Below are positions 38,670-62,689 of a stretch of 64,000 nt of DNA, one piece after another. The stretch is from contig CANTUZ010000025.1 in assembly GCA_947846985.1 (NCBI GenBank), positions 7,128,100 to 7,192,099 of the forward strand, in the 5' to 3' direction. The notes beneath the pieces were generated by a model. It was not told the DNA's origin and did no database searches. It worked only from the letters and a program-made list of their open reading frames with translations. The DNA is from Fratercula arctica. Taxonomy: Eukaryota; Chordata; Aves; Charadriiformes; Alcidae. The position numbers were made by a program, and so were the translations under genes. Within the stretch, counting starts at the first letter, position 1. Every line of letters begins with the position of its first letter.

Positions 38670-39256
38670 TATAAGGGGAAATCAGTGCAGTTGTAACTTA
38701 AGAAAATTATTGGAAGTGCCCATTTTCTGAAACAGTACATCTTTAATACTGTACCTGAAATCTTCCATTATGCTTATTCATCATAGAATCATAGAATCGT
38801 TTTGGTTGGAAGAGACCTTTAAAATCATCGAGTCCAACCGTTAACCTAACACTGCCAAGTCCACCACTAAACCATGTCGCCAAGCACCACAGCTACATGT
38901 CTTTTAAATACCTCCAGGGATGGTGCCTCAACCACTTCCCTGGGCAGCCTGTTCCAATGCTTAACAACCCTTTCAGTGAAGAATTTTTTCCTAATATCCA
39001 GTCTAAACCTCCCCGGCGCAACTTGAGGCCATTTCCTCTTGTCCTATCGCCTGTTACCTGGGAGAAGAGACCAACCCCCACCTTTCAGGTAGTTGTAGAG
39101 AGCAATAAGGTCTCCCCTCAACCTCCTTTTCTCTGGACTAAACACCCCCAGCTCCCTCAGCTGCTCCTCATAAGACTTATTCTCTAGACCCCTCACCAGC
39201 TTCATTGCCCTTCTTTGGACATGCTCCAGCACCTCAATGTCTTTCTTGTAGTGAGG

Positions 39257-39938: not shown

Positions 39939-40141
39939 AGATTAAGGGGAACATTAACAATGTATGGGCGAACAGTTGCAACTTGACCTTCCGGCCCTAT
40001 TATCTGAATAACATGTAAGCTTTGTCGAGAGGTGGAAACTCCCTCAATTCCAGCAAGCCCGCCACTGGCAGAGGCAGTGGGCCACTGAGGAGGCCAACGC
40101 TGGAAAGAGATCACAGTCACGTCAGCCCCTGTGCCAATCAT
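39869..40141 (-). pseudogene. pro: Class II ERV protease, active-site Asp lost
   Basis: Retroviral aspartic protease region: MIGTGADVTVISFQRWP occupies the site normally read as a DTGA motif; here the Asp codon position reads Gly, so the enzyme would be dead. It is in the same frame as the dUTPase upstream, separated by a stop near 40205. It overlaps the RT frame by about 70 bases, as expected for a pro-pol frameshift arrangement. Confidence 0.8.
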
Positions 40142-40204
40142 TCCTTTGACTGTGATTGACTCTGGCTTGTGACCCCCGTTACATAGCTGACAGGTTAATG
40201 TTGG

Positions 40205-40612
40205 TCATGTGGCTTGAATTTGGTGTGCCCAATAGATCACTGGAGTTCCTGTGGAGCCAAAGCCTCCTGCCCCTCTCCTTTTGAGCTTGGCACATGGCAC
40301 TGAGCTCAAGAAAGGGACTAGCTGGGCAATGCAGCTTTCTGCCGGTATGGAGACTGGTGGGGATGGCGTCCATACCATAGCTTGAATCTGTCCTGTATAA
40401 TCTGCATCTATTACTCCGGGTAAAACAAATAGTCCTTGGGAGGTGGTGCTAGATCGTCCTATTAACAGTGCAGTAAGACCTCTTCCCAGTGGTCCATATA
40501 GTGCGAGAGGCACACGATGTACCTTTTGGTCTCTTATTGTGACGTCGATGGCTGTGGCAACATCCATACCGGCACTTCCGGTGGTCTGTGCTCGGAGGCT
40601 GTCCAGACCCAT
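40205..40612 (-). pseudogene. Class II ERV dUTPase domain
   Basis: Motifs of the trimeric dUTPase are visible in order: GSAGMDVATAID (motif 1), GRSSTTSQGL (motif 2), LPGVIDADYTGQIQ (motif 3), ESCIAQLVPF (motif 4) and GAGGFGSTG (motif 5). It lies between gag and protease, the betaretrovirus position, and overlaps the end of gag by about 80 bases in another frame. Complete as a domain, apart from the stop at its end. Confidence 0.88.
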
Positions 40613-42196
40613 GATGTCCGCGGGCGCATGCCTAATAGGCTTGGGTTGCGGGGCATTTGTGTCGAGGCGTGCCCCTGCTTCGCGCTGGTCCTCCCGTTTC
40701 CCGAATGCGGGGATAGCAGTTGCCCGACCTTATTATATCTTGAACGGCATTGATTTGCAAAATGTTTGCCTTTATCGCAGCGTGGACAGATATCTGGGGT
40801 CAGATCATTGGTTCCTGTCCCTTGCGGACAACTACGCTTAAAATGACCTGGTTTGCCACAACGGAAGCATATTTGCTCTTTTGTTGCAACGGCGGCAGCG
40901 AATGACGCCGCAAGCATATCGGTTTGATAGGAAATGGATCCCACTCTATTACAAGCCTCTATCATGTCTATTAGGCCTGGATTCTTTAGGGGTTGCAAAA
41001 TACATTTACAATCAATATTAGCATTTTCCACTGCTAGTTTTAGCATCAGAGCTTCTTTGGCCTCTAGATTATCCACTTGCTTATGAATAGCTTCTTGTAA
41101 ATGATCAATAAATGTCATGTATGGTTCATTGGGACCCTGCTTGATAGTTGTGAAAGATTGGGTTGCCTTGCCTGTGTCAGGGACCTTAATTATAGCTTTC
41201 AGGGCAAGGTCTGCCGACCGCTTTAAAATTTCTGGTGCTAGCCGCGCTTGGAGCTGCGGAGTATCGACGGGTGACTCCCCCAACAATTGAGGGAGACCTG
41301 CCCTCTGTAGAGGATCTCCATCTTCTCTAGACAAATTATCTATTGCGGCAAAACTGCATGCGTCTCTCCAGCGTGCCATAAAGAGAACACGCTGCGTGGG
41401 GGTAAAGATAACATCTGCCAATTGTCTGATATCAAACGGAGTTAGTATGTGTCCCTTCATAATGGTATTTAATAATCCTTGCACATACGGGGAAGTTAGT
41501 CCATGCTGCATAATCGTTTTTCGCATTTCTTTAACTAGCTCCCAGCTCAGCGGTTCCCAAGTCTTTGGTCCTTGTCGAGTGATTTTCACAGGACACACGA
41601 GGGCAGTAGCGGCTTCTAAATCGCCGTCTTGTATTGCCTGTTTACGTAACTTCTGCCAGTGCTGGGCGGGATCGTAAGTCGTGGGAACTGCCTGACTTGG
41701 CGGAGGATCCTCTCAGCCCGGTAAATCCCTTTCCTGCAAGCACTGTCGTATTCGAACTAGAGGCTCGGACCCGGGGGGCTGCGGCGGTGCTGCCGCCGAA
41801 TCTAATGGGAGTGCTGAAGACGTAGCAGGATGGCCCGGGGGCTCGAGCTTCTCCCCCCACTTTTCCTCTATATGAGCGGCAGCTGGGCTGTCCGGCGTCA
41901 CTGCGGCCCGTTCTGATTTCATCTGCTGTAATGTGTCCTGAATTAACCTCCAGGTTGTTAAGATCTTCGTAGCTACCGCATCCCCTTTCGTTGCTGCCTC
42001 AAACAAAGTTTCACCGGCTTGCTCCCAACTTGATAATTGGAAAGCTGTTGTAGAATCAGCGGGAAGGCCCTTGCTTTTTAGCCATGCTTAGCAAAAGCCG
42101 AAGAGTTCCTTCATCATATTGTATACCCCTTTTACTTAAAAACTTTTCTAATATACATACAATCGCCTTTTCCTCTGAGGACATTTTTGACCCCAT
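40534..42196 (-). pseudogene. gag: Class II ERV gag with frameshift and stop
   Basis: The start codon near 42196 (MGSKMSSEEKAIV) opens a short frame that shifts near 42090. The main frame then runs LFEAATKGDAVATKI (about 42003), meets a TGA at 41713, and continues through capsid (LSWELVKEMRKTIMQHG, TLTPFDIRQLAD-like region) to two CCHC zinc knuckles, CFRCGKPGHFKRSC and CPRCDKGKHFANQC, near 40750-40860. Two knuckles and the overlap with dUTPase fit class II. The early frameshift is also present in the second provirus at about 49010. Confidence 0.85.
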
Positions 42197-42322
42197 TCTC
42201 ACACGTTCCCGGCTGCTCACCTTTCCTTGGTGATTAGTCGTCCGGACTGCAGCTCTCAGATACCGCTGCTTTTTTTTGTTCAGCCGGGCTGCTCCACCAG
42301 TTGTATCTTCCTACAATTCAAG

Positions 42323-42340
42323 TCCCGATTCGGGCTGCCA
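42323..42340 (-). promoter_or_regulatory. Primer-binding site of the class II ERV
   Basis: On the minus strand TGGCAGCCCGAATCGGGA lies two bases after the LTR. It resembles the tRNA-Lys3 primer site with an inserted base and two changes; another tRNA may fit better, so I do not fix the primer. Confidence 0.6.
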
Positions 42341-42342
42341 TT

Positions 42343-42652
42343 TGTGGAGCATTAATTCACGGACTCTGGCAGGGTATGGACCAAAGACCTTTATTATAAC
42401 AATTTCCCGAGTTTTATAGGTACAGGTACCCTCCACGCGCAGGCAGCATCCTGCTGATAGGTTGAAGGTCGATTGCCACGCACTTCTCGGTGTCTTCCGA
42501 TTGGTCGTCTCTATCTGTTCACGCGGAGTAGCAGCTTTGCTTTCACATTCCTTTTCTTGCTGATATCTCCTGACGCTTGCTTATCTTTTCTCTCAAGGCG
42601 CCTCTCAAGGGTACAGCTTTGTCTCATCAAGGCCAAACTCTCTATCTCCACA
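42343..42652 (-). mobile_element. 5' LTR of class II ERV (first provirus)
   Basis: About 310 bases bounded by TGTGGAGCATTAATTC and CTATCTCCACA on the plus strand. The half nearest the internal region is essentially identical to the 5' LTR at 49258; the other half is more diverged and slightly shorter. Confidence 0.88.
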
Positions 42653-43616
42653 GTGAGGGGCCCAAAACCGAACACAGTACTCAAGGTGGGGCCTCACCAG
42701 TGCTGAGTACAGGGGGACGATCACTTCCCTAGTCCTGCTGGCCACACTGTTCCTGATGCAAGCCAGGATGCCGTTGGCTGCCTTGGCCACCTGGGCACAC
42801 TGCTGGCTCATATTCAGCCAGTTGTCGACCAGCACCCCCAGGTCCTTTTCTACCAGGCAGCTCTCTAGCCACTCTTCCCCAAGCCTGTGTCGCTGCATGG
42901 GGTTGTTGTGACCCAAGTGCAGGACCCAGCACTTGACCTTGTTGAACCTCATACAGTTGGCCTTGGCCCATCAGTCCAGCCTGTCCAGATCCCTCTGCAA
43001 AGGCTTTCTACCCTCAAGCAGGTCAACACTCCTGCCCAACTTGGTGTCATCTGCGAACTTACTGAGGGTGCACTCAATCCCCTTGTCCAGATCATTGATA
43101 AAGATATTACAGAGAACTGGTCCCAGTACTGAGCCCTGGGGAACACCACTCGTGACTGGCTGCCAACTGGATTTAACTCCATTCACCACAACTCTTTGAG
43201 CCCAGCCCTCCAGCCAGTTTTTTACCCAGTGAAGCATATGCCCATCCATGCCATAAGCAGCCAGTTTCTCCAGGAGAATGCTGTGGGAAATGGTGTCAAA
43301 GGCTTTACTAAAGTCCAGGTAAACAATATCCACAGCTTTTCCCTCATCCACTAAGCGGGTCACCTTGTCATAGAAGGAGATCAGGTTAGTCAAGTAGGAC
43401 TTGCCTTTCATAAAGCAATGCTGACTGGGCCTAATCACCTGCTTGTCCTGTACATGTTGCGTGATGGCACTCAAGATGATCTGCTCCATAACATTCCCCA
43501 GCACCGAGGTCAGACTGACAGGTCTGTAGTTCCCCAGATCATCCTTCTGGACCTTCTTGTAGATGGGCATCACATTTGCTAACTTCCAGTCTAATGGGAC
43601 CTCCCCACTTAGCCAG

Positions 43617-44090
43617 CCACAAGTTTTTCAAAATGCTGTATGTTCTAGAACTACCTTTATATTGTTTAAGCAGCAGCAGGTCAAAGAGCCACAGACAGTG
43701 CTGTTCAACTATTACTTATTCCTCAGATTTCCACAGAAACCTTGAATCCAGCCCTCTGATATTATTAGAATCGATAGTATCATCGTCGATATTTGTCAAG
43801 TACAAAAAGGATATCCTGTTCTTAGAATTTGGCAGAATGACTTTTTTTGGCTTTTAATCTTCCCTGATTTGCAGTGGGCTACAAAAGCAATATTTTCAGT
43901 AGTATATTTTTGTAAAACTTTTGAGTTCCTTAATGATGTTCCACAGAGTTGTTATGAAGTACAGGGACAACGGAGGTGAATGTTTTGAAGTTTGCTTGGT
44001 TCAAACAAAAAACAAATTAGAACTTCAGTCAGAACTGAAGTTGAAGAAACTCAAAATGCCTACAAATTCAAAGCCTTGTCTTAATGTGCC
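43617..44090. other. No gene recognised (host flank of provirus)
   Basis: AT-rich stretch between a CR1 and the second provirus. If the DAPK1 reading is right, it would be intron upstream of the exon at 50121, continuing at 49590. Confidence 0.45.
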
Positions 44091-44096
44091 TTTAGA

Positions 44097-44422
44097 TGTG
44101 GAGCATTAATTCACGGACTCTGGCAGGGTATGGACCAAAGACCTTTATTACAACAATTTTCCGAGCTTTATAGGTACAAGCACTCTCCACGCGCAGGCAG
44201 CATCCTGCTGATAGGTTGAAGGTCGATTGCCACGCACTTCTCGGTGTCTTCCGATTGGTTGTCTCTGTCTGTTCCCGCAGAGTAGCAGCTTTGCTTTCAC
44301 ATTCCTTTTCTTGCTGATATCTCCTGATGCTTGCTTATCTTTTCTCTGAAGGCATCTCTCAAGGATACAGCTTTGTCTCGCCCAGGTCAAACAGATCCCC
44401 TATGCTATTCCCTATCTCTACA
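44097..44422 (-). mobile_element. 3' LTR of mosaic provirus
   Basis: Preceded on the minus strand by a polypurine tract AAAAAAGGGGGAATTG. It differs from its own 5' LTR at about a dozen of 326 positions by eye. Confidence 0.9.
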
Positions 44423-44440
44423 ATTCCCCCTTTTTTATTT
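44423..44440 (-). promoter_or_regulatory. Polypurine tract of mosaic provirus
   Basis: The minus strand reads AAAAAAGGGGGAATTG directly upstream of the 3' LTR, the usual second-strand primer position, which supports the orientation. Confidence 0.8.
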
Positions 44441-45373
44441 TTCTACAACAAAAGCTTGATTAATCATTTTTTGCACTACTTTCCATAAGCAGCCTAAAAT
44501 ACAGGGCACGACAAGCATTAAGGCACACACAATTAATAACAACAATCCAACCTTTACAGTTGATAATAGCCATCCTGAAATACCCCAACTGTTAAAAAGG
44601 TTATCCAGCCATTCCCAACTTCCCTCTATTTGTAATTTCTGCACATTTCGCTCTAACTGTTGTATACTTTTATGGATCGATTCAGAGTGGTCTGATAAAT
44701 TCATACAGCACATGCCATCAAAATCTTCACATCCATGGCCGTGCGCTAATAACAGGAAATCGATGGCTGCCCTATTTTGCAGAGTTGCGTGGCGTATGGA
44801 ATCTACATCTAATAAAAGGCCAGAAAGCGCTAATGAAGTAGCGTTACTTTGTTTTGCAAGCCAACAACCTAGCTTTTTGAAGAGCGTGAGCGCTTTCGCT
44901 GAAGCCACACCGGGGGCAAGGAAAGAAGAAATGGCAACCACGGGTGGCTGCCAAAAGTGTACTTGGTCGTTACAATCTGACTCGAAAGCATGAGTTACCG
45001 AGCATTTATTTCTGTGGTAGTCTTTTGCATGAGTGTGACTTAGTATCATTGTGATATTAGGTGTCAGCATGGTTAATTTTCCTAGAGTACAAGGCCCTCC
45101 CGTAATCCGAGAAGGAATCCCTGACCAGGCACAATCTCCACAAATAAAAAACACGCCCTGGGGCAGTTTCCAGGGTACCGAATCCGCAGGGGCAACATGA
45201 GTGGATGTCCAATTGCACCATTTTGATTGATTCTGATATATACTATCAAGAGGGGTGACCTTTTGGAGATATGTTGCGTTTCGAGGGTATTTGGTGAAGT
45301 TAAAATATTTACAAGCATTGGATGACAAAGACGACATGTTTAGAAAATTTAAAACATAAGTTGCTTTATACAT
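44435..45373 (-). pseudogene. env: env remnant: SU end and complete TM
   Basis: A 312-codon open frame. It holds the C-terminal part of a surface subunit with N-glycosylation sites (for example NATSL, NITM), then a transmembrane subunit with a heptad region, a segment beginning [17 protein letters not shown], the CX6CC motif CEDFDGMCC, a membrane anchor (VGLLLLIVCALMLVVPCIL) and a short tail. The CX6CC type is that of alpha/gamma-like Env. The signal peptide and most of SU are missing, because an internal deletion joins it directly to the integrase end. Confidence 0.85.
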
Positions 45374-45730
45374 TTACTCTTGAGGTGTCATACCTATGGG
45401 ATTCCCCCTTTTTCGTTTATCAAGCATGGTTTTTAAAGTATGATGCATACGTTCCACAATTGCTTGCCCAGTTGGGGAATGAAGAATACCGGTGACATGT
45501 CTTTTATCAGTTTTTACAGTTTTCGGTACTCCCATGACTGCAATGCATTGCAACCCATGTCGAATAACATCACGAGCCTTCTCTCCTGTAGGAGCAGTAG
45601 CTACAACAAGGTGAGAAAACAAATCAACTGAAACCATGTACATAGCGCAAACATCCAAATTCCATAATGTGCGTAACCTCGGATTGCCAAAGTTCATCAG
45701 GTGTAAGCCCTCGCGGGTTAACCCCCGCAA
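45374..45730 (-). pseudogene. pol: Integrase fragment with core deletion
   Basis: Retroviral integrase core: first Asp in MVSVDLFSHLVV, second Asp in VKTDKRHVTG, Glu in GQAIVERMHHTLK. Only 17 residues separate the second Asp and the Glu, against the usual 35, so about 18 residues are deleted in frame. The upstream LTPDELWQ-like motif is readable in another frame at about 45700-45735. Non-functional. Confidence 0.8.
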
Positions 45731-45979
45731 ATGATGGCAGAGGAGCCAGCTGCTGACAACACAAACGACCCTGCAAAATCAATCATGCTAACATTTCAAT
45801 CATCATAGTTACTGTTTTTGAAAAGGTATGTGGCAAAAATACCCACTCTAATGCAGTCAGGCTCTTTGCGAGCGCATCATCCCACTGTCATATCAGGGTG
45901 TAAGGTTGAAATTCTTGATGTATCATAAACAAATCTGCAATGTGCTGTAATGCTTTCTGAGCTGTTGGGGTTAATGAAC

Positions 45980-46226
45980 GTGGAACCTACAGGGGAGGGG
46001 GAGACAGACACAGCGCTTCAGGGCATCCCCTGTATCTTCAAAGTGCGCTCATGTCTCTTCCCCTCTCTCCAACCCGAGACAGCCCCCTTATATCCTGTCC
46101 CGGATTGAGTGGAAAAGTACAGGCTAGAGTCGCTACATGTGTGGCCAGCGCATGCAGCGAGCCTCACCAGACTCATGATCCAGCTTTGCTAACCACGGAT
46201 GTCTGATACCTGACTACATTGTTGCA
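45980..46226 (-). mobile_element. LTR-like stretch inside mosaic provirus
   Basis: The minus strand begins TGTAGTCAGGTATCAG after env-like sequence and has a TATA-like AGGATATAAGG near 46090. This is the position expected for a 3' LTR of the inner element. Its 3' end is not clear. Confidence 0.35.
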
Positions 46227-46362
46227 CTCCCTTCTTGTTATCTTCTTCTTTGAAGGTCAGGTTCTCATGGATGCACACATAGTTTTTGCAGCAACAGTAC
46301 TGAGTCCCTTTTTCCCAACATGTATACTGGGTTTGGTTCAACTAGTAATTTTCCATTGTGTC

Positions 46363-46950
46363 TCACTCAGACCATCCTCTATTATCCCTTACACATGCCA
46401 TCCCGTGGTCCATAGTTGGGACATGACGATATTCTACAACTCGTACAAGGGTGTGATGCAAAGCGGCATCTACAACTGATCGTATAATGCTTATTAAACA
46501 TGGCAAACAGCATACTAAACATAACAGACAGATTCCTTCCACACAGGCAATGAGTATAATTTCCTTCAACCAACCCCACCCCCAAGTCCATCCAGCAAAG
46601 AGATTTCACCCAGTGGTCTCCACAAGTTGCTGTCTCGGTCGGTGCAGTTCTTGCAACTGGGCATGGATGGATGTGGAGTGGTCACTTAGATTCATACAAC
46701 AAAGTCCTTTAAAATCTTGACAACCGTGTCTGTGAGCTAAAAGCAAAAAATCAATAGCAGCTCTGTTTTGCAGCGTCGCATGTTGAATACTATCTACATC
46801 TAGCAATAACTCAGAAATAGCTGTACTAGTAGCATTACTAAACTTATCCTTGGCAGCGAAAGAGTCCTTGTTAGCAAGAGCGCATGCGGACTCCCTGTTC
46901 TTGCTGGTACTGTGCTTTGATCTTCTTCCACAACAGGCCAGGATTCTCAA
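46363..46950 (-). pseudogene. env: Second env TM fragment, different lineage
   Basis: The region 46606-46950 has [18 protein letters not shown] and the CX6CC form CQDFKGLCC, related to but distinct from the TM at 44435. A following frame (46363-46569) has a hydrophobic anchor (GICLLCLVCCLPCLIS) and tail. Two TM genes in one provirus indicate that two related viruses contributed. Confidence 0.75.
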
Positions 46951-46999
46951 GCAGCTAGATAAGGTGTCCCTGAGTCCATTACAGACTTATGTCATCCAA

Positions 47000-48145
47000 G
47001 TGTTTTTCTTGCAAGCACCTGAGACTGAATAACAATTAGTGTGATAGATGTGTTTTCCAGCACCCAGGTGCGAGTCCCTTGAGCGTATTTACAATCCTCC
47101 TTGCTGATCTTCCGTTGCTTTCCCATATTCCACCCCCCCACTCAAGAGACTGCTTCTGCTGGGGTTCATTTAGTCTCGCAGAGTATAACACAGAGTAATT
47201 TACAAAGGCGTGCAATAACATATATACATATAGGAAAAAAAACCCCAAAACATATCTCTATAGTACTGCTTGAATCAGGTGTCCTATTTCTCTTTTTCTG
47301 CCGCTTTCTCGTAGCACATATGGCATACTTTTGTGCTAATGCGGCACATTTCCCTTCTAATTGTTCCTTTTTTTTTTTTTTCCCCATCACTTACGGCTGA
47401 CATAAAAGTCTGCCTTTGCAACAAGAGCTCACCCTTAAGTTTCTCATTTTCCTACAGAGCATCCTATAGATTTTGGCTCAACTCCTTTTCCCAATCATCC
47501 ATGATCTTATAGGCAAACAACAAACAACCAGCCATACGCCCTGCATGGGTAAGCCGTTCCCGAGAGTGTAAGCATGTCAGCTGGTGAAAACTCCCCCAAT
47601 ATTTCAGGACTTCCATCAGTTCTACGGCCCATCATGGTCTATCTACCTGGGGTGCGCTCGCCTTACGTCTAAACATTGTGTATATACAAACTTCTTCGCT
47701 TGACAGTGTGTCAGCCCTAGTCACCTACGAGAACAGTACCACACTGGGCAGAACACCTGCTCAAGCAGAGTCACCAAACGACACTGCACACAGCAACAAA
47801 CAAACAGTAGCACAGATGCTGATCAGCAGATATAAATTGGCGCCCACACACACTTACACAGCAGACATACAAAAACACCACTTCTATCTCAGGGAGACAG
47901 CTGGGGAGGGGGTGAGGCGGGCAGCGGCGGGAGCGAAGCGGCTCCGGCTCCGTCCTTCTCCACTGACATTCTGACAATACACTGCAATACCCCAATTCCA
48001 GCTGCGCACGCATAAGCGGTTGAGAAGGAGGAACAGACGCGGTACATGGCGCAAATGGAGGAGGGTTAAGAATGGAGGAACGCGATAACGACTTTCGTCT
48101 CTGTTGCTGTAAAATCTCCTCCGCAGTTGGAGCAGATGCAGCCAT
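47000..48145 (-). pseudogene. Degenerate gag-like region of inner element
   Basis: Pro/Gln-rich and charged segments in several frames: MAASAPTAEEILQQQ (48145), a segment near 47500 read as MDDWEKELSQN, and ENEKLKGELLLQ (near 47440), which looks like a coiled coil. No zinc knuckle seen. I infer gag from position after the MGQ-type start at 48673; the frame is broken many times. Confidence 0.45.
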
Positions 48146-48424
48146 AGCTTTAATCAGGGTTAAAGGTGGACATAAATCAGGTTCAGTCTCTGGATTTATT
48201 GGACCAGGATCAAAGGGATCTTCTGGCTCTTTGCCTCCCGAATTCTACTTTTGGTAATGTTCTTCAGGACTGGGAATTTGAGCATATTCAGGCTGAGGGT
48301 CTGCAACTGGGGGTATCATTTCAAAAGACTGAGGTTCCTCTGGGGGAGCTTGTGGTGCCCCTCCAGCAACCCCTTGCAGGGCTTGCGCTGCGGGATGCAG
48401 TGTTCGTATGGCAGTGTATACAGT

Positions 48425-48673
48425 TCACCAAGTAACTATTATTCCTTCTGGCAAGGACAAGTGCAGCATCTCATGCGTTTGCAATTCCTCCCCCACTTTT
48501 AGCTGCTGAGCCAAATTGTAGGACCCCCCTTCAGGGAACCATGAGCAATAATCACGTATCCATACAAGCAAAGTCACTAGTTTGACAGGGGCCACTTTAA
48601 AGCCCTGTTCTGTTAAAATGCACTGCAGAAGTTCAAGTTGCAATTTCTGTTCTCGAGTAGCTGTTTGCCCCAT
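48425..48673 (-). pseudogene. gag: gag N-terminus of inner class II element
   Basis: Starts MGQTATREQKLQLELLQ and contains CSWFPEGGSYN, a matrix-domain pattern typical of class II Gag (myristoylation-type MGQ start, WFPEGG). Upstream (48680-48790) is a leader unlike that of the outer element. The frame is lost near 48425. Confidence 0.8.
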
Positions 48674-48839
48674 TTTTAATGTCTACCCCGGCTACTCACC
48701 TTTTTCGTCCAGCAAACGGTGATGAAAGTAACTGTTAGAGAGCTCTCGGTATGAACTCCTCCGTCCAGCCGCAGGTACACCTCCGGATAATTAGTACTTC
48801 ATATCTCTGTTCCTTTTAATCCTTGTTCGGACTTCATCT

Positions 48840-49130
48840 GCTGCAATGTGTCCTTAATTAACCTCCAGGTTGTTAAGACCTTCGTAGCTACCGCATCCCC
48901 TTTCGTTGCTGCCTCAAACAAAGTTTCACCGGCTTGCTCCCAACTTGATAATTGGAAAGCTGTTGTAGAATCAGCGGGAAGGCCCTTGCTTTTTAGCCAT
49001 GCTTAGCAAAAGCCGAAGAGTTCCTTCATCATATTGTATACCCCTTTTACTTAAAAACTTTTCTAATATACATACAATCGCCTTTTCCTCTGAGGACATT
49101 TTTGACCCCATTCTCACACGTTCCCGGCTG
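48840..49130 (-). pseudogene. gag: gag start of outer class II element
   Basis: Near-identical to 41920-42196 of the first provirus, including the same early frameshift. Similarity stops near 48840, where another leader begins. Confidence 0.8.
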
Positions 49131-49237
49131 CTCACCTTTCCTTGGTGATTAGTCGTCCGGACTGCAGCTCTCAGATACCGCTGCTTTTTTTTGTTCAGCC
49201 GGGCTGCTCCACCAGTTGTATCTTCCTACGATTCAAG

Positions 49238-49255
49238 TCCCGATTCGGGCTGCCA
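49238..49255 (-). promoter_or_regulatory. Primer-binding site of mosaic provirus
   Basis: Same 18 bases as in the first provirus (TGGCAGCCCGAATCGGGA on the minus strand), two bases from the LTR. Confidence 0.65.
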
Positions 49256-49257
49256 TT

Positions 49258-49583
49258 TGTGGAGCATTAATTCACGGACTCTGGCAGGGTATGGACCAAA
49301 GACCTTTATTATAACAATTTCCCGAGTTTTATAGGTACAGGTACCCTCCACGCGCAGGCAGCATCCTGCTGATAGGTTGAAGGTCGATTGCCACGCACTT
49401 CTCAGTGTCTTCCGATTGGTCGTCTCTGTCTGTTCACGCGGAGTAGCAGCTTTGCTTTCACATTCCTTTTCTTGCTGATATCTCCTGATGCTTGCTTATC
49501 TTTTCTCTGAAGGCATCTCTCAAGGATACAGCTTTGTCTCGCCCAGGTCAAACAGATCCCCTATGCTACTCCCTATCTCTACA
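49258..49583 (-). mobile_element. 5' LTR of mosaic provirus
   Basis: 326 bases. In its first half it is closer to the LTR at 42343 than to its own 3' partner (for example the TATAACAATTTCCCGAG and GGTACAGGTACCC segments). Confidence 0.9.
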
Positions 49584-49589
49584 TTTAGA

Positions 49590-50120
49590 TGACTCAGGTT
49601 TCTAAGTACCCGAGTTACTTCCTACACTCCTAAATGATTTAGATGTGCTTTGAACATTGTTAGCAGAGTGATCTGCCTCAAACTGACAGTGTTGTGGGGT
49701 TTGTATTTCCTTGGTGAGTGATCTATTTTAAACACCGGATAAGTACCTCAGGACACAGGATGTAGAAGTTGCTTATGAATGAGGATGTGTTTTCAAGTAA
49801 GAGAACCAAGGTAAATAATTAGCTTTGGCAGCATGGAAACATCTAAACTAGTATTACTGACATACCAGGTATTGTCAATAGATAGTGATGAAAATCTAGT
49901 GAGTTATCACAGTCACCTAGTATGTCAGCAGGAATTATTCTTGCTTTGAGAATGTCATCATTAGAAATTACCACATCTCTTTAAAGGCCTTACTTAATAG
50001 ACTGTCTTTTTTCTTTCCCGTCACCTTCCTGTATTTCTAAGTTAAGCTGGGGAATAGTTTCTTCTAGCATTTGGCTTCATCATTTTTTTTTTATTTTATT
50101 TTCCTAATCCATGTTGATAG
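49590..50120. other. Putative DAPK1-like intron
   Basis: AT-rich, ends with a T-rich tract and the acceptor TTGATAG before the exon at 50121. No other feature seen. Confidence 0.5.
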
Positions 50121-50314
50121 GAAGAAGAAATCCCATTGCATTGCACTGCTTGGCATGGCTACTGCTTGCTAAAGCACTTTGTGAAGCAGGTTGTAATGTG
50201 AACACTGAAAACAAAGAAGGGGAGACTTTGCTCCCGACAGCATCTGCTAGGGGTTACCATGTTATTATGGAATGCTTGGCAGAATATGGAGCTAACCTTG
50301 ATGCAACAGACAAG
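50121..50314 (+). pseudogene. DAPK1: DAPK1 ankyrin exon relic (exon A)
   Basis: DAPK1 is a death-associated, calmodulin-regulated kinase with an ankyrin-repeat block. This stretch matches one of its two-repeat exons: it opens EEEIPLHCTAWHGY, then (after a frameshift) AKALCEAGCNVN, EGETLLPTASARGYH and ECLAEYGANLDA. A normal exon of this kind is 198 bases (66 codons); this one is 194, because four bases are missing near 50176, which puts the two halves in different frames. The acceptor AG at 50119-50120 is kept, but the donor reads AT (AAG|ATTAGT) where GT is expected. Intron position is preserved, so it is a decayed genomic copy, not a processed one. Confidence 0.9.
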
Positions 50315-51203
50315 ATTAGTAATGGGTGAACGAGTTGCTTTTAGTCAGGAATTATGTCCAGAGATCACAGATGTCGTAGAGCAGTACCTCTGAATTGCTT
50401 CATTTGAACGCTGCAAGCCATCATTACTTTTATGACATGGGTTTTTTGAGTGGTTCTACAGAGAATATTGATGACTCAAATATAGTCTTTAAAGTTGCTG
50501 ACTGTTTATTTTTCCATTATTTGGTTTATTTTGGTTCATTATCGCCTTATCAATTAGCACCTTATTAGCAACACACTCTCTATGGAAAATAGCAGGAACA
50601 CTGAATTCTGTAATTGGCAACAAGCTATTAACTTAAGAGAAAAAAAATCATTTACTGTTTGCCTTTGTACCTATGTGTCAGATAAATCGCACCTATTTGC
50701 AATAAGCTAAATACCAGCCTTTTAAAAATATAACTCTGATTCAGAATGATTTTTTGTCTTTCAGGATGTGATCTCAAGGAATAAACTTTGCATTTAATTC
50801 CTTATACTTACACTATGCTTGTCCTTATAGCTAGCTTTATTGCTCGTGGAATTGTCATTATATCTAAATAGTTACTAAAGCAAGTTCAGGAAAATGCTTT
50901 TTCTTCTAAAAGAATTACATTGATTTTTACAGCCACACTGCCTCTTTAAGTTATTCCACAGAGAGAAAGCTCTGTCTCTAAAGCTACTAATCTCTAAGCA
51001 GATTGTATGACTTTTATTTCACTAACTTCAGTCACCAAACTCTACAGGGGTTTAAGATACTCAACTGATTGTTACAGTTGGTCACTCTCCCATTCCTTCT
51101 GGAAGTCATCAGCATAGAATGTGTATTTGCACTTCATTCCAGTGAAAAGCTCAGTGGTTTAATGTAAATCTGCTTTCATCCTATAGTTGACTTGTTCTGA
51201 CAG
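50315..51203. other. Putative intron, left of solo LTR
   Basis: AT-rich DNA between the exon relic and a solo LTR; no gene or repeat recognised. Confidence 0.5.
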
Positions 51204-51835
51204 TGTACTGGTTTTGGCTGGGATAGAGTTAAATTTCTTAAAGGTAACTTGTAAAGTGCTATGTTTTGGATTTGTGATGAAAATAGTGTTGATAAGACAG
51301 GGATGTTTTAGTTACTGCTGAGCAGTGCTTACACAGAGTCAATGCCTTCTCTGCTTCTCACACCATTCCACCAGTGAGTAGGCTGGGGGTGCACAAGAAG
51401 TTGAGAGGGGACACAGCTGGGACAGCTGACCCCAATTGACCACACTGGAGCAGGTGGATATTTCCCAATTGACCAAAGGGATATTCCATACCATATGATG
51501 TCATGCTCAGCAATAAAACTGTGAGGAAGAAGGAGGAAGGGGGGATGTTTGGAGTGATGGCATTTGTCTTCCTAAGTAACCATTACGCATGATGGAGCCC
51601 TGCTTTCCTGGGGATGGCTGAACACCTGCCTGACGATGGGAAACAGTGAGTGAATTCCTTGTTTTGCTTTGCTTGCACATGCATCTTTTGCTTTACCTGT
51701 TTAACTGTCTTTATCTAAACCCACAAATTTTCTAACTTTTACCTTTCCGATTTTCTCCCCCATCTCACTGTGGGGGGAGTGAGTGAGCGAGCGTCTGTGT
51801 TGTGTTTAGCTGCCTACTGGGGTCAAACCATAACA
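51204..51835 (+). mobile_element. Solo LTR in the DAPK1-like intron
   Basis: About 632 bases, from TGTACTGGTTTTGGCTGGG to GTCAAACCATAACA, flanked by GACAG and GATAG (4 of 5). It contains AATAAAAC near 51511. It is the fullest copy here of the LTR whose fragments occur at 13275, 24570-25688 and 26275. Confidence 0.85.
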
Positions 51836-51999
51836 GATAGATACTGTGCATCTCCTTGCCTACACCCCAAAAGAAAAAAAACCATTGTGATTACTGAGGC
51901 AGGGAGATGCACAAAATTACCATGAATGATCATGAATGAAAAATACTTTGATTTTTAGCATTATTAAAATCTTGCTTAAAAGTTGTCTTGTGATTTCAG

Positions 52000-52197
52000 G
52001 ATGGTCATATAGCCCCACACCTTGCCATGAGAAGGCATCAAATGGAGGTGGTTAAAACTCTCATCAGTCAAGGATGTTTTGTAGATTTCCAAGACAGACA
52101 TGGAAACACTCATCTGCATGTGGCCTGCAAAGATGAGAATGTTGCTATTGTGATGGCACTCTGTGAAGCAAGTTATAATTTGGATGTCACTAATAAG
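52000..52197 (+). pseudogene. DAPK1: DAPK1 ankyrin exon relic (exon B)
   Basis: Exactly 198 bases and open throughout: DGHIAPHLAMRRHQMEVV, then LISQGCFVDFQDRHGN, VACKDENVAIV and ALCEASYNLDV. This is the two-repeat exon that follows exon A in DAPK1. The acceptor TGATTTCAG is intact; the donor is AAG|ATAAAT where GT is expected. Ankyrin-consensus positions have changed (the Pro of one TPLH motif reads His; an Ala-Leu-His site reads Ala-Pro-His), as expected with relaxed constraint. No other DAPK1 exon was recognised in the window. Confidence 0.92.
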
Positions 52198-52706
52198 ATA
52201 AATGGAATATGGGAACTGAAATACTTTGTTCAATAGCTCACCTATTGCATTAAATGACCTTTTCCATTTCTCTGATATTAAAAGTATTTTTCCTTTTTTC
52301 CTTTCTTTTATTTTTCGTCTCTTATTAAAGTGGCCAAATGCAAAGCATTAAATAATTCATCTTTCAAATTTACCTAAATTTGTTTTGGTTGAGTAAATGA
52401 TTAAAGATCTGTGAAGAGCCCAAGTGAATTAATTATCACAGTGTTCTTTGCTGTTCAGCTCTAATGTGGAAGTATATGCCAACCCACTTCCCTAGTTGCA
52501 TAGCTTTACTTTCTGCAGATTACATCTAGGCATTGAAGAACAGATGAAATGAATTTCTGCTGGCCTAAACAAGTACTGATTTGAAGTGATTTAATAAGAG
52601 TCATTTACTTACAGAATTGAAGACTGGCAACTTTTTATAAAAAATCTGCTTTGAATTCTTACAAACTATGTGAAAAGACTCACATTGTCATCTAACAAGC
52701 CCAAGT
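52198..52706. other. Putative DAPK1-like intron
   Basis: AT-rich sequence after exon B; nothing recognised before CR1 begins. Confidence 0.5.
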
Positions 52707-52950
52707 CACAGAAGGCAAAGACAGAGACTGGGAGAATAAGGAATTGTCTACTGTAGGAGAAGACCAGGATGGAGACCATCTAAGGAACCTGAAGGTGCAC
52801 AAGTCCATGGTACCTGATGAGATGCATCCACGGGTCCTGAGGGAACTGGCGAATGAAGTGGCTGAGGCACTATCCATCATAATTCAGAAGTCGTGGCAGT
52901 CCGGTGAAGTTCCCACTGACTGGAAAAGGGGAAACATAACCCCCAAGTGG
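52707..52950 (+). mobile_element. CR1 fragment, RT N-terminal linker
   Basis: Encodes [16 protein letters not shown] and [15 protein letters not shown], then stops abruptly where another CR1 piece starts. Confidence 0.85.
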
Positions 52951-54684
52951 GGGGTAGCCTTAGCTGCAGTGATCATGAAATGGTAGAATTCAAGATCCTT
53001 AGGACGGCAAGGAGGGTGCGCAGCAAACTCACTACCCTGGACTTCAGGAGAGCAGACTTCGGCCTCTTGAGGGACCTACTTGGCAGGGTAACATGGGAAA
53101 AAGTACTGGAGGGGAGAGGGGCCCAAGGAAGCTGGTTAGTATTCAAGGATCACTGCCTCCAAGCTCCGGAGCAGTGTATCCCAACAAAAGAAGAAGTCAG
53201 GCAAAAAAGCCAGGAGGCCTGCATGGATGAACAAGGAGCTCCTGGACAAGCTCAAAAGCAAAAAGGAGGCCTACAGAGGGTGGAAGCAAGGACAGGTAGC
53301 CTGGGAGGAATACAGAGAAACTGTCCGGGTGGCCAGGAACCAGATTAGGCAAGCTAAAGCCCAGATAGAATTAGATCTGGCCAGAGAAATCAAGGACAAC
53401 AGGAAAAACTTCTATGTCAGAGATAAAGGCAAGACTAGGGAAGACGTGGGCCCTGATCACCCAGGATATGGAGAAGGCTGAGGTACTGAATGACTTTTTC
53501 GCCTTGGTCTTCACCAGCAAGGGCTATAACCACACCACCCAAACTGCAGAAGGCAAAGGCAGGAGCTATGAGAATGAAGAACCGTCCAGTGTAGGAGAAG
53601 ATCAGGTTCAAGACCATTTAAAGGAAACAGAAGGTACACAAGTCCATGGGACCTGATGAAATCCATCCACAGGTCCTGAGGGAGCTGGCGGATGAAGTTG
53701 CTAAGCCGCTTTCCATTATATTTGAAAAGTCATGGCAGTCTGGTGAAGTTCCCGCTGACTGGAAAAGGGGAAACAGAACCCCCACTTTCAAAAAGGGAAA
53801 AAAGGAAGACCTGGGGAGCTACAGACCAGTCAGTGTCACCTCTGTGCCTGGCAAGATCATGGAGCAGATCCTCCTGGAATCTCTGCTAAGGCACATGGAA
53901 AATAAGGAGGTGATTGGCGACAGCCAACATGGCTTCACCAAGGGCAAGTCATGCCTAACAAATTTGCAGGCCTTCTACGATGGTGCTACAGCATTGTTAG
54001 GGGGGAGGAACTGACGTCATCTACCTGGACTTATGCAAAGCATTTGACACTGTCCCGCATGACATCCTGGTCTCTAAATTGGAAAAGCATGGATTTGATG
54101 GATGGACCACTCGGTGGATAAGGAACTGGCTAGATGGCCGCACTCAAAGGGTTGCAGTCAATGGCTCAATGTCCACGTGGAATCCAGTGATGAGTGGCAT
54201 TCCTCAGGGGTCAGTACTGGGACTGGTGCTGTTTAACATCTTTGTTGGCGACATGGACAGTGGGACTGAGTGCACCCTCAGCAAGTCTGACGATGACACC
54301 AAACTGTGTGGCACGGTCAACACGCTGGAGGGAAGGGATGCCATCCAGAGGGACCTGGACAGGCTTGAGAGGTGGTCACATGAGGTGGTCACATGCGAAT
54401 CTCATGAAGTTCAACTAGGCCAAGTGCAAGGTCCTGCATCTGGGTAGGGGCAATCCAAAGCCGAAATACAGGCTTGAGAGCAGCCCTGAGGAGAAGGACT
54501 TGGGGGTGCTGGCGGACGAGAAGCTCAACATGAGCAGGCAGCGCGCGCTCGCAGCCCAGAAAGCCAACCGCATCCTGGGCTGTATCAAAAGAAGCATGGC
54601 CAGCAGGTCGAGGGAGGTGATGCTGCCCCTCTACTCTGCTCTGGTGAGACCCCACCTGGAGTACTGCATCCAGCTTTGGTTCCT
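52951..54684 (+). mobile_element. CR1 fragment, endonuclease end to RT C-terminus
   Basis: Starts with the endonuclease end (CSDHEMVEFKIL), then linker ([16 protein letters not shown]), RT ([26 protein letters not shown], box KSDDDTKL) and the C-terminal block, with frameshifts near 54000 and 54390. Ends where the third ERVL-like copy begins. Confidence 0.9.
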
Positions 54685-56304: not shown

Positions 56305-56820
56305 ATCAAATTATATGATGTTAATTGCTAAATAACCCTGTCACTGTATATCCTCATTACTATAATTGCTATCAGTTGTACTACAGTAAGAATCACCCAA
56401 ATTAAGGACAGATGGGCTTTGATGAAAAACTGAGTAAAGCACAGCAGTGATGGGATCAGAACTGACCTCAGCAGCTGGCACCCAGCAACTTCCTCAAGAT
56501 CTACATCTTCAACCCATGGACTGTATGCATGAGCCACGCCAGGTACACCAGCCGCAAGCTCCGAAAACGCAGCATGCAACAGTCCAGCACCACACACCAT
56601 CTCACCTGCCCTGAGAGACTGTTCTAACAGATGGAGCCCAAAGCCGTGGATTAAATGAACTCACCAGACACTTTGGAGGGATGGCCCATAAAGTAAGGGC
56701 ATTATATCTGCATGAATATATATGTGTGTATATATATATGACAGGGGAAAGTGGTGGCAATTCCTTGGAACCTGTAAGATCTGGGCATGGCAAAAATGGT
56801 GTGGAATAAGGGGTGGATAA
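56305..56820 (+). other. 3' non-coding region of ERVL-like copy, no env
   Basis: About 515 bases between integrase and LTR with no env-like reading. A short alternating TATGTGTGTATATATATATG stretch lies near 56720. Confidence 0.6.
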
Positions 56821-56980
56821 TGTCCTGGTTCTGGTGGGGACAGGGTTAATTTTCCCCAGGCTCTGTCAGGGACACAGGTATTCCATCCCATGTGAGCCGT
56901 GCCTACTCTGAGCTGCCGGGGGAGGGGGCAGAAAGTCACCGGGGGCTTCCTGGGTTGCCGTCTGAGGCCAAACCACGACA
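56821..56980 (+). mobile_element. Shortened 3' LTR, ERVL-like
   Basis: Starts TGTCCTGGTTCTGGTGGGG and ends AAACCACGACA like the full LTRs, but is only 160 bases. Relative to the 4295 LTR the middle, including the poly(A) region, is deleted. Confidence 0.85.
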
Positions 56981-57574
56981 GGTGCATCAAGAAGAGTGTG
57001 GCCAGCAGGTGGAAGGACATCATCCTCCCCCTCTTCTCTGCCCTGGTGAGGCCGCATCTGGAGTACTGTGTCCAGTTCTGTACTCCCCAGTTCAAGAAGG
57101 ACAGGGAACTGCTGGAGAGGGTACAGCAAAGGGCTACCAAGATGATTAAGGCACTGGAACACCTCTCTCATGAAGAAAGGCTGAGGGATTTGGGTCTTTT
57201 TAGTCTGGAAAAAAGATGACTGAGGGGGGATCTTATCAATGCTTATAAATACTTAAAGGATGGGTGTCAGGAGGATGGGGCCAGGCTCTTTTCAGTGGTG
57301 CCCAGTGACAGGACAAGAGGCAATGGGCACAAACCTGAGCATAGGAAGTTCCACCTAAACATGAGGAGGTACTTCTTTACTTTGAGGGTGGCAGAGCACT
57401 GGAACAGGCTGCCCAGAGAGGTGGTGGAGTCTCCATCTCTGGAGACATTCAAAACCCACCTGGACACTGTTCCTGTGCAACCTGCTCTAAGGTGACCCTG
57501 CTCTGGCAGGGGGGTTGGACTAGATGATCTCCAGAGGTCCCTTCCAACCCCTACCATTCTGTGATTCTGTGATT
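56981..57574 (+). mobile_element. CR1 3' end fragment
   Basis: RT C-terminal block (RSHLEYC-type segment, [18 protein letters not shown]) to the tail ATTCTGTGATTCTGTGATT at 57574. Confidence 0.88.
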
Positions 57575-57695
57575 GGATGGGGCTTTGAGCAACCTGGTCT
57601 AGTGGACGGTGTCCCTGCCCATGGAAGGGGAGTTAGAACTACATGACCTTTAAAGGTCCCTTCCAACCCAAACCATTCCATGATTCTATGATTCT
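57575..57695 (+). mobile_element. CR1 3' tail fragment
   Basis: About 120 bases of CR1 3' UTR ending in CCATGATTCTATGATTCT, directly after another CR1 tail. Confidence 0.8.
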
Positions 57696-58243
57696 CCCCT
57701 TCTACTCTGCTCTTATGAGACCCCACCTGGAGTTCTACGTCCAGCTATGGGGTCCCTAACATAAGAAGGACATGGACCTGTTGGAATTGGCCCAGACGAG
57801 GGCCATGGAGATGATCAGAGGGCTGAAGCACCTCTCCTATGAAGACCAGCTGAGAGAGTTGGGGTTGTTCAGCCTGGAGAAGAGAAGGCTCTGGGGAGAC
57901 CTTATAGCAGCCTTCCAGTACCTAAAGGGGCCTACAGGAGGGATGGGGAGGGACTCTTTATGAGGGAGTGTAGTGATAGGACAAGGGGTAATGGTTTAAA
58001 ACTGAAAGAAGGTAGGATTTAGATTAGATATCAGGAAGACATTCTTTACTGTGAGGGTGGTGGGACACTGGCCCAGTTTGCCCAGGGAAGTTGTGGATGC
58101 CCCATCCCTGGAGGTGTTCAAGGCCAGGCTGGATGGGGCTTTGACCAATCTCGTCTAGTGGGAGGTGTCCCTGCCCATGGCAGGGGGGTTGGAACTAGAT
58201 GATCTTTAAGGTCCCTTCCAACTCTAACCATTATATGATTCTA
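57696..58243 (+). mobile_element. CR1 3' end fragment
   Basis: C-terminal RT block ([18 protein letters not shown]) and 3' UTR to the tail near 58243. Third CR1 3' end in a row. Confidence 0.88.
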
Positions 58244-58644
58244 ACAAGTGATTTAAATCAACTACAGATTCTACTACCAGTTATAAAAATACATGTCATA
58301 TTGGCTTGTTTGTGTTTTCATGGCTTGAGTTGATTTATCAAAATAAATCCTAATCAAACATTTATCTTAAAGTAAAATAGCTTTAAGTTTTTTATTAAAC
58401 CAGTTGTCACCAGTAGGGTACACTAAATCTCAGAAATAAAATGTTAAGTGTAAAAGTATTTTCACAAGTTGAAGACAGTAGGCTGAATAAGGTGCTTTGT
58501 GGAAACTTGTTGCTCTTGTTTCACATAGGCATGACAATCACAGAAACACTTGGCAAATTATGTACCTTTAAAAACATTGATTCCAGTGCATATTACTGTA
58601 TTAATGCCAGCTAAAAATGTGAAAAGTCCATAATTGTAGTAACC
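58244..58644. other. No gene recognised
   Basis: AT-rich stretch between CR1 relics. Confidence 0.5.
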
Positions 58645-58930
58645 TGTTCCAGTAGTCTGTCAGCCTCACAGTGAAAAAGTGTTTCCTGATGTTCAGACAG
58701 AACCTCCTGTGTTTCAGTTTGTGCCCATTGCCTCTTGTCCTGTCACTGGGCACAACTGAAAAGAGTCTGGTTCCATCCTCTTTACACCCTCCCTTCAGGT
58801 ATTTATATACATTAATAAGATTCCTCCAGAGCCTTCTCTCCAGTATGTCCATGTCTCTCTTGTACTGGGGAGACCAGAACTGGACACAGGACTCCAGGTG
58901 TGACCTCACCAGTGCTGAGTAGAGGGGAAG
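58645..58930 (-). mobile_element. CR1 fragment, C-terminal block
   Basis: The minus strand reads [20 protein letters not shown] and [17 protein letters not shown], the C-terminal CR1 pattern, with part of the block deleted near 58840. Confidence 0.85.
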
Positions 58931-59169
58931 GCTGTTTCTTCCTGGTAGTCTTGTGTGGTTTATGGTTAGGCAGACCAGGTCCTTTGCTTGAAGGCACATC
59001 TGGCTCCTCTTCAACTTTGAGGGCCATGAACCTATTTTGCAGTTGTAAGCCCTTACAAGTGGTAGGGCAAGAACCATCATCTTAGTGCCAAAAGTCACCA
59101 GCTTCCATCCCTTCCCTTCTCCAGAGGTTGCGCTTACTTTGATAGTGAGGGTAGACACTGCCTGCTTCT

Positions 59170-59480
59170 CTATTGCTGGTGCAGTCTGAGATTCTTCAAG
59201 CTGTTGCTTCTATCTCCCTTTCATCTTCTCTGATGCTGCGCAGCTTGCTCACTTCCTCCCATAACTCCTCCACTTGGTGGCACAGCTCCTTCAAGATGGC
59301 ACACTTCCTGCAAGACAGAGGGCCATCTCTCCTGGCATCAGAGAGAGGCCCCAGACACTCCCTGCAGCCTGGGACTTAGAGGGCTGCATCCACCATCTGA
59401 ATCTCAGTCTGTGTGGAAACCTCTGCCCTAGCAGGGAAAGCTGCTCCAACATCCACTGGGGAAAGTGTAGCATGTTACTA
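59170..59480 (-). mobile_element. CR1 ORF1-like fragment
   Basis: The minus strand resembles the ORF1 N-terminal and coiled-coil region of the CR1 at 37332 (Cys-rich stretch around CCREC-like codons near 59360). Short and decayed; moderate call. Confidence 0.5.
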
Positions 59481-59624
59481 CCATGTCTGAGACTATCAGT
59501 GGCACAATTTCAACTGAGACTGCATTACTTTGCCCCCTTCTTTGTGCCCTTTTGCACGAACTGCTGCTCAAACTGCTGCATCTGTTTGTCTGCCTGTTAG
59601 CTGCACTCTGTGCATGCTCATGGA

Positions 59625-59950
59625 TGTTATTGTCACCGAAATCATGAATGAACTTCCTAACACCAATGTAGTCTTAAGAAGCAGGCATTCTTTTATTCGG
59701 CGACAGGGATATGGGGGATCTCTCCACCTAACATGTCCACTGAATGCGAGATTCACAGAGATTTATATCCATACAGAATATGCATGGTCATTACATTTCC
59801 CAGCACTCATTGCCATATTCATTACATTTCCAGAACTCATATCCATATTCATTACATTTCCAGAACTCATTTCCATATTCACATCACCTTGGCACATGCA
59901 CATTAAGTCTGTTAGGGACTTCATGGCTGGTTTGAGCTGATAATAGAGGA
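59625..59950 (-). mobile_element. LTR-like region with minisatellite
   Basis: On the minus strand AATAAAAGAATGCC (near 59690) is followed about 70 bases on by a possible end GGTGACAATAACA at 59625, as in an LTR 3' end. The other boundary is not seen. Confidence 0.35.
59790..59880. repeat. Three 30-base tandem units
   Basis: Units of CATTACATTTCC..ACTCAT..CCATATT occur three times with few changes. Open on both strands over this length because 30 is a multiple of three. Confidence 0.9.
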
Positions 59951-60057
59951 ATCTCTTTGTATGGATTGGGGAAGATAAATGCAGAAGTTTTTGCAACTCC
60001 CCCATTTATTTTGCAAGCTTGTTATCGGTCCCTCCAGTCTCTATGAGAATGTGGTAT

Positions 60058-60633
60058 TGTTATAAATACTCAGAGTCTGTGAGGAGTTCAGTAACTGTTT
60101 ATTGGATAAGGAAGCAAAAGCAGCGCTGGGCGGCCGGGGAGTCGCAGCTCCACCAGGGCTCGCAACTTTACATATCGCAAGCGACTCCTTTTATCTTCGC
60201 GGAGGCGGGCTTCACCGTCGTCGATGGAATCTTGGTTTCCGTCGAATCACAATGTCGGTTAATATTTACACACAGGATATAAGCTTAACACATAAATTGT
60301 TGCAAAACAGGGTAAACGGATGGCTGCACAAGGGGTATCAGTTTCTATAGTAACATTATCTTGGGCCTCTTACTTCTATCCATATAAGGCCATGTCTTAT
60401 AGCCGCTTGTGGGGGGGATGTTTCCTGCTAGCCTTTGCGGTCAAACTTGATGAGCAGAACAGGATGCTCTGCTCCGCAGAGCGGGGCAGTTTCGCCATTT
60501 AGCTGGTTCAACAGTCACCTTATTTTATCAGCAAATTACTTCTCAAGTATCTATTACAGTATTCTCCGCTGTTTGTTCTTCACAAGGAGTTACATTAACC
60601 TATTTACCAGACTCTCAGTCCCTGGTTGTAACA
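60058..60633 (-). mobile_element. Probable solo LTR
   Basis: About 576 bases bounded by TGTTATAAAT and GGTTGTAACA, with inverted ends TGTTA/TAACA. On the minus strand AATAAACAG near 60097 lies shortly before the end. No clear target duplication. Confidence 0.55.
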
Positions 60634-61970
60634 TTATGACTGAGATAATATTTCAACCTGTCAGGAAACTTTCTATTAGCTGAACAGTTTACTAATATAA
60701 TATGTAACATAATATTTTTGAGAAAGGTAAACTGTATGTGGATCAAGGGGTGGAATATAGTGATCCTGACTGGGAGACCATTGTATATCGAGGAGTTAGT
60801 GATCCACATAACAGTCAATCTGAGTAGGCCCAGGCCTGTGCTGTGCTGAGCTGCGCTGCATGTACAGCTTGGACTTCGGGCCTGTGTAGTGTTCCACAAA
60901 CTCCTTGGCCACAGGATAAACTCAGCCAGCTCATTGTAACAGAGGAGCCTACCAGGAAGCTCCCACTTGGTACCAGTGATTACACCACCTGCGTGGCCTT
61001 GCCTTTATCTAAAAGTGCAGCAAGAAGTTCTCATGCGAACATCCTTTCTGTTTGGCGGTAGAAATTATGAATAGAGCTGTTTTCTTGTAAGAAAATCCTA
61101 TAATAGCTTGAATGACCAAAAAGGAAGAACCTCTCCACGGAAAGAATCTGTGCAGCGTGCCACGGGAAAATCCATCCGGGGTCCATACGATGCTGCGCAT
61201 ATGCAGGATTCCCAGTATCTGAAGGGATGTAAGATTTACTCACTATCTATATTCCTCTTTTTATTCTGTCTTATTAAAACAGCTATTGTATTAAGCCATT
61301 TGCCATTTGTTGTTGGGCCTTTCTTGTTGAGATCCAGAAAGAACCCTCCACTGTCTTTCTCTCACCTACCCTGCTGGTGCAGAACAATTTTACACAGATA
61401 CACAGGAAAGGTCTTGCAAAAACTGAAAGGAAAAGTATTTTTGATAACAGCTTGACCACAACTTCTTACGCTCAATTAAAAATGAAGGCTAGATTGACTA
61501 CTTTAAAAATGGGAAAATGTATCACTAAGTCCCTCATAACTGCAGAGGAATCCTTTATAGTTTTGGGCTGTATATGAGAATGTTTTTCCAATTCCCACTA
61601 AATTTAATTGCATTTTGCTTAATTAAATACGAATCAGTTCAGCAACTATAAGTCCTTAACCTTTAAAGCTCTGGATTATATTTAAAGCCAAGTGTTATTG
61701 AAGATTACATATATTCACTCTCTCCTTTCCCCTAGAAAAAGAAATAAAAGAGAAATGTTAAGAAGTCAGCCTAAAGGAGTTTGTTCTTTCAGTGGCAAAG
61801 AAATGTCCAGGGGCAAGAACTTCCAAGGGGGAAGTCGCTGCAAGTATTCCTTCCCCAAGTCTTGCTTTTTTCCCAAGCCTCTCTACTGAAAACAGGCCTT
61901 CATGACATCCACTTCTGGTCTTTCACATTCACATCTGTTATAAATACCACTACCATATACTCTCTGCTTT
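60634..61970. other. No gene recognised
   Basis: AT-rich DNA with short frames; no repeat boundaries or exon-like stretch that I can support. Confidence 0.5.
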
Positions 61971-62620
61971 TGTTATGGTTTGAGGAACCTACAACAATTT
62001 ATTGTCATTTAGACAATTATTCTATCACCCGATGACCCCTCCCCACCCAGGAAGGGGAATTGGGGAAAGCAAGGAAACACAAAGGTTGAAATATAAACAG
62101 TTTTAATAGAATAAGACTAAATAATTAACATTAATAACACTAAAGAGCCAATACTGATCCCGATACCAATATAAAATATACAAGGATTATACTCAGCCAA
62201 TTCTATCAGTAGGAAGCTGTGCACTCCCAGCAGTGGACAGCAAATGTCAGACACTGCAAGCGCTGTGGCTTCGGGAGGAAGGGGAGGTCTCCGGGGTCCG
62301 TCACGGGGGCAAGAAGTTCTCAGGATCACAGCCATCAAGGAAGAGAGAGAAACTACGCAGCAAACTTTCTAATTGATATTGAATGTGATGTTCGTGGTAT
62401 GAAATAATCCTGTTGGCCAGCCTGGGTCAAATGCCCAGGCCTCGCTCCTCCTCATCCCTGCACCTGGTAAGGCTTGAAAACACTGAGACCTTGAATCCCA
62501 CATAGCCTAGCTGGCTATAAAGTAAATATTTCCACAAATTCAGACACTAGAGTCTTCTAAAAGTGCAGTTTTCCCCAGCATTAGAAGAGAAATTAGTCCT
62601 GTGTCGCTCAAACCAGGACA
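61971..62620 (-). mobile_element. Solo LTR, ~650-base family, copy 3
   Basis: TGTTATGGTTTGAGG to AAACCAGGACA, flanked by GCTTT and GCTTC (4 of 5). Same family as 17662 and 22370 but more diverged from each than they are from one another. Confidence 0.88.
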
Positions 62621-62689
62621 GCTTCTGACTCCTGTTATTACTTATTCACACAATTCAATACTCTTCTCCCTATTTTAACCCTACATTCA

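Follow-up and report, generated by a model that had tools for sequence, protein, structure and literature searches.

A 64,000-nucleotide stretch of the Fratercula arctica genome (assembly GCA_947846985.1, contig CANTUZ010000025.1, positions 7,128,100 to 7,192,099 of the forward strand), referred to here as the window, contains two consecutive ankyrin exons of the gene DAPK1 on its plus strand. The first, exon A (50121..50314, 194 bases, frameshifted), corresponds to human DAPK1 residues 477-542 split over two frames (tblastn, E value 6.6e-24) and matches Pfam Ank at 50165-50314 (E value 4.6e-05). The second, exon B (52000..52197, 198 bases, open), corresponds to residues 543-608 (tblastn, E value 3.7e-27; match at 51997-52197, residues 542-608) and matches Pfam Ank_2 (E value 1.9e-09). 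A bird protein from the penguin Spheniscus (P0127), used as the second query, recovered the identical two places.

The remaining low-E matches paired exons A and B with other ankyrin repeats of DAPK1, and the top match elsewhere in the window had an E value of 2.1 with the human query and 6.7 with P0127. No further DAPK1 exon was found with either protein in the 50 kb of the window upstream of the pair or the 11.8 kb downstream. As a detection control, random pieces of the penguin protein (not real exons), 33 or 66 residues long, were mutated, with a 4-base loss introduced into half of them, and planted in a copy of the window. At 10, 15, and 20% divergence, 37, 37, and 38 of 40 longer pieces were recovered at an E value of at most 1, as were 35, 31, and 29 of 40 shorter ones; therefore, one short decayed DAPK1 exon could have escaped detection.

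Both exons retain intron sequence. Genome-assembly fragments in which intron had been translated as protein were matched to the window, and the plus-strand intron between exons A and B (50315..51999, 1,685 bases) proved homologous to fragment P0237 at 51051-51137, 51833-51868, and 51898-51999. The intron 3' of exon B (52198..52372, plus strand) is homologous to the DAPK1 intron in P0238, P0239, P0242, P0247, and P0248. Intron sequence presumably also extends, on the same strand, upstream of exon A from the end of an LTR-like (long terminal repeat) element at 49586 (49587..50120, from its position) and past 52372 to a CR1-like repeat that begins at 52701 (52373..52700). Across 51137-51833 the window exceeds P0237, the sole fragment that reaches across this site, by about 635 bases, and the excess is a solo LTR of 632 bp (51204..51835, no strand assigned) with 5-base flanks, GACAG and GATAG, that are alike at four of five bases. 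Joining the flanks gives an in-frame reading of LTCSDRYCASPCLHP, compared with LICSDRYCASPCFQP in P0237, in which the site is empty; therefore, the LTR inserted into a pre-existing DAPK1 intron. Counted as the fewest base differences, the nearest fragments are P0248 (7 in 66) and P0247 (3 in 39), with 6 in 48, 4 in 36, and 16 in 87 for P0237, 12 in 69 for P0238, 6 in 45 for P0242, and 10 in 45, 12 in 60, and 0 in 24 for P0239. From their exon residues, P0237 and P0238 look galliform-like, P0242 anseriform-like, and P0239 passerine-like. Judging by these introns, the window copy is genomic DNA that has kept its introns and is not a retrocopy.

An earlier note on this DNA, made from its letters alone, had proposed two consecutive DAPK1 ankyrin exons kept with their intron, the second exactly 198 bases and open, the first 194 bases with a 4-base deletion, both acceptors preserved and both donors reading AT where GT is expected. 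The tblastn matches and the intron homology confirm the exon pair, and the length and openness of exon B hold on the sequence. The frame of exon A runs through 50162 and resumes at 50168, leaving 5 plus-strand bases (50163..50167) where 9, or three codons, are expected, so that 4 bases are lost, as proposed. Acceptor AG precedes each exon, the preceding stretches terminating in GATAG for exon A and TTCAG for exon B. The donors do read AT on the plus strand at 50315..50316 (exon A) and 52198..52199 (exon B), and GT could be demonstrated as the expected state for exon B; for exon A, whose donor is spanned by none of the fetched fragments, it follows from a 198-base exon length alone. All 22 fetched exon-B fragments that continue into the intron have valine, that is, GTN, after NK; therefore, the exon B donor has been lost in the window copy. 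None of the 22 proved to be a W copy when such copies were sought among them, as all have GTN donors and look functional. The copy has lost at least one donor and carries a frameshift. A shared cause for the two donor changes was dropped as unneeded, because G-to-A is a common type of base change and only two of the eight splice-site bases are altered.

The copy was compared with 40 functional DAPK1 rows (33 from birds and 7 from others) over 129 usable columns, 86 of them invariant in all 40; rows from Phalacrocorax, Crocodylus, and Callorhinchus were excluded, as the anchor could not be located in them. Sixteen amino acids of the copy occur in no row of this set, and 13 of the 16 fall in invariant columns, against about 10.7 expected under random placement, whereas each functional bird row has 0 to 8 departures from the consensus and 0 to 3 private changes in columns that are otherwise invariant. 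Its end branch in the tree described below is 0.16 (median, 0.007), and it differs from the bird consensus with methionine (Met) at alignment site 81 by at least 19 base changes in 387 exon bases. Disabling lesions (the 4-base loss and the lost donor of exon B) thus coincide with relaxed constraint. Judged from these changes, the copy is dead: nonfunctional, evolving as if unconstrained, and predicted to make no DAPK1 protein.

The copy also looks old. Its codon at site 81 (52042..52044, plus strand) encodes Met, the state in 7 of 7 palaeognath and 7 of 7 non-bird rows, which is gone from 25 of 26 neognath rows; these 26 rows (24 species) have isoleucine (Ile) in 22, valine in 3, and Met in 1 (Centropus). 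By itself, this Met points to a placement outside the neognath copies. The copy lacks the states of the nine passerine rows (Arg 58, His 62, Ser or Thr 126) and the galloanserine Gly at site 124, and it has Tyr at site 57 in common with Upupa. In a 38-row tree (three rows that duplicated a species were omitted, and the groups were picked after the alignment had been seen), the approximately unbiased (AU) test rejected grouping the window copy with passerines (p-AU 0.0146) and with galloanserines (p-AU 0.0294). In the free tree its weakly supported neighbors were palaeognaths, Centropus, and turtles, and the bootstrap had not settled. Separately, P0134 and P0182, both from Struthio, disagree at three sites in the compared region, and the score of P0182 is low for a bird DAPK1, unusually so (84% identity).

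DAPK1 is listed on the Z chromosome in chicken (PMC1876622) and in Kentish plover (PMC8792134), as the earlier note had supposed for birds, so the remnant, assigned to DAPK1 by tblastn, is homologous to a gene placed on Z by these two listings. Repeats make up at least 54% of the window and, as endogenous retrovirus (ERV) and CR1-like sequence, most of the surroundings of the exons; transposable elements make up 5.9% of flycatcher autosomes and 8.8% of its Z. Although a window repeat share and published transposable-element shares are different kinds of measure, the load resembles the published W figures, not those of Z or the autosomes; the note had remarked that the window is rich in ERVs and CR1s as W chromosomes are. 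The note's decayed, intron-containing DAPK1 copy is established, and its W-linked gametolog is favored over the other readings but not proven: we consider the locus a nonfunctional, intron-retaining remnant, most likely the W partner of Z-linked DAPK1 (probability of about 0.68). This reading is the best because DAPK1 is listed on Z, a Z-linked gene has a natural second copy on W, and the repeat load is suitable, as is the apparent age, which is indicated by an amino acid at site 81 that is missing from 25 of 26 neognath rows and by the rejected passerine and galloanserine groupings. Under such a history, Z-W recombination would have ceased and the W copy of DAPK1 would then have lost its function; neutral substitutions and retroelement insertions would have broken it up, and the remaining exons would have been deleted or pushed outside the window.

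Several observations count against a W relic or against its great age. No second Z-linked gene was found beside the DAPK1 copy, as six-frame Pfam scans of four unique stretches (1-3760, 13380-17360, 26600-31560, and 59020-64000) gave no match at the cut-off and a single sub-cut-off match, to DUF4186; Pfam also covered 49500-53000 in the three plus frames and 56400-64000 in one frame. Repeat-rich heterochromatin on an autosome or on Z would appear alike locally. The AU test rated a neognath clade with and without the window copy equally (p of 1 each), so that the exon tree suggested in the earlier note rejected nesting within passerines and galloanserines and left inside and outside the neognaths unseparated. 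Centropus, a neognath, has Met at site 81, and therefore the state can recur. In addition, P0247 and P0248, the nearest intron fragments, carry Ile at this site, as neognaths do, which lends mild weight to a split within neognaths over one before them. A further proposal, which we regard as tentative and somewhat doubtful, is that the copy diverged from the Z-linked gene ahead of crown Neognathae and ranks with the oldest W pseudogenes that can still be recognised.

An old segmental duplicate carrying part of DAPK1, lodged in repeat-rich autosomal or Z heterochromatin with no connection to W, would undergo the same decay, and it suits a locus with just two exons and no flanking host gene found by tblastn across the window or by Pfam on the four unique stretches. 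We nevertheless consider it unlikely, given a repeat share far from the flycatcher autosomal and Z values and the natural second copy that a Z-linked gene already has on W. Still less probable is a secondary transposition in which the original W copy was lost and a Z segment with DAPK1 was later copied to W and then decayed. Such transposition has been reported in songbirds (PMC7692361), and an ancient event in another lineage would be compatible with the data, but the long end branch, the Met at site 81, and the rejected passerine grouping make this copy look old.

The remaining alternatives concern what kind of sequence the exons are. If they were a functional DAPK1 segment carrying sequencing or assembly errors, the completely open exon B would be as expected, whereas 16 private changes, the 4-base loss, at least one lost donor, and the want of any neighboring exon in the searched flanks would not, and we give this explanation very little credence. 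A processed, retrotransposed pseudogene is the least credible of all and can be ruled out, because the copy retains both the intron between its exons and the one after exon B, each homologous to DAPK1 intron in other fragments.

The surroundings of the W-relic candidate consist largely of retroelements. An ERV stretch at 38403-49586 terminates about 530 bases before exon A; it contains Gag_p24 and zinc-knuckle domains at 40537-41712 (minus strand) and an env open reading frame at 44438-45373 (minus strand) matching Avian_gp85 and TLV_coat, and its LTR-like repeats at 49258-49586 and 44097-44425 are 96.4% identical. At 4325-13216 lie two retroelement copies in opposite orientation, whose inner arms (5584-8058 and 9657-12129) are 97.9% identical and whose outer parts (4325-5537 and 12056-13216) are only 80% identical; this uneven divergence may reflect gene conversion or nested insertion. 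A 731-bp element at 24697-25427, 98% identical to an inverted copy at 28470-29196, is bordered on either side (24563-25689) by pieces related to the solo LTR of the DAPK1 intron (24563-24697 and 25428-25689), as though an LTR from this family had been its insertion site. Three copies of an LTR-like element of about 640 bp (17662-18300, 22379-23017, and 61971-62622) are 91-96% identical. The window also contains a 430-base pyrimidine-rich tract of degenerate CCTTCC-like units (13669-14098) and a 30-bp tandem repeat in 3.1 copies (59788-59881), with no tRNA found by ARAGORN and no Rfam family at the gathering score.

W pseudogenes as such are already known. In the collared flycatcher, IFNB, FCHO2, SMC2, NTRK2, and HOMER1 are W-linked pseudogenes (PMC4468903), and they resemble the DAPK1 remnant in being ancestral sex-chromosome genes that persist as broken W copies among CR1 and retroviral elements. 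NTRK2 and DAPK1, moreover, are both listed on the chicken Z with human 9q counterparts (PMC1876622). However, DAPK1 is not one of the five flycatcher genes named there, and W linkage was demonstrated in that case with female and male reads (PMC4468903), whereas here it is deduced. Decayed genes are likewise found on the ancient W of the crested ibis, where 36 of 339 genes are pseudogenes (PMC10891136). The Z-to-W transposed segments of songbirds are also DNA-based W copies of Z genes, part of them decayed, but they are young enough that W reads map to Z, whereas the window copy looks old (PMC7692361). The main texts of PMC4468903, PMC7599627, PMC6735826, PMC10891136, PMC8662655, and PMC7692361 do not mention DAPK1, although their supplements may list a W-linked DAPK1, and a search of the available literature found no paper combining DAPK1, the W chromosome, and gametolog, with two papers pairing DAPK1 and the term W-linked.

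The remnant is most likely an ordinary yet informative relic of the decay of sex chromosomes. In the brain of the Kentish plover, DAPK1 is reported as one of the Z-linked genes with male-biased expression (PMC8792134), which would fit the absence of a functional copy on W. Catalogues of W genes tally mainly survivors, and broken remnants reveal genes that were lost late enough to leave traces; the introns of such remnants might date Z-W separation for genes with no living W copy. If the split did precede the neognaths, the Met at site 81 would be the residue that the gene carried until Met changed to Ile in neognaths, and noncoding W relics of this kind could date strata for genes without a living W copy.
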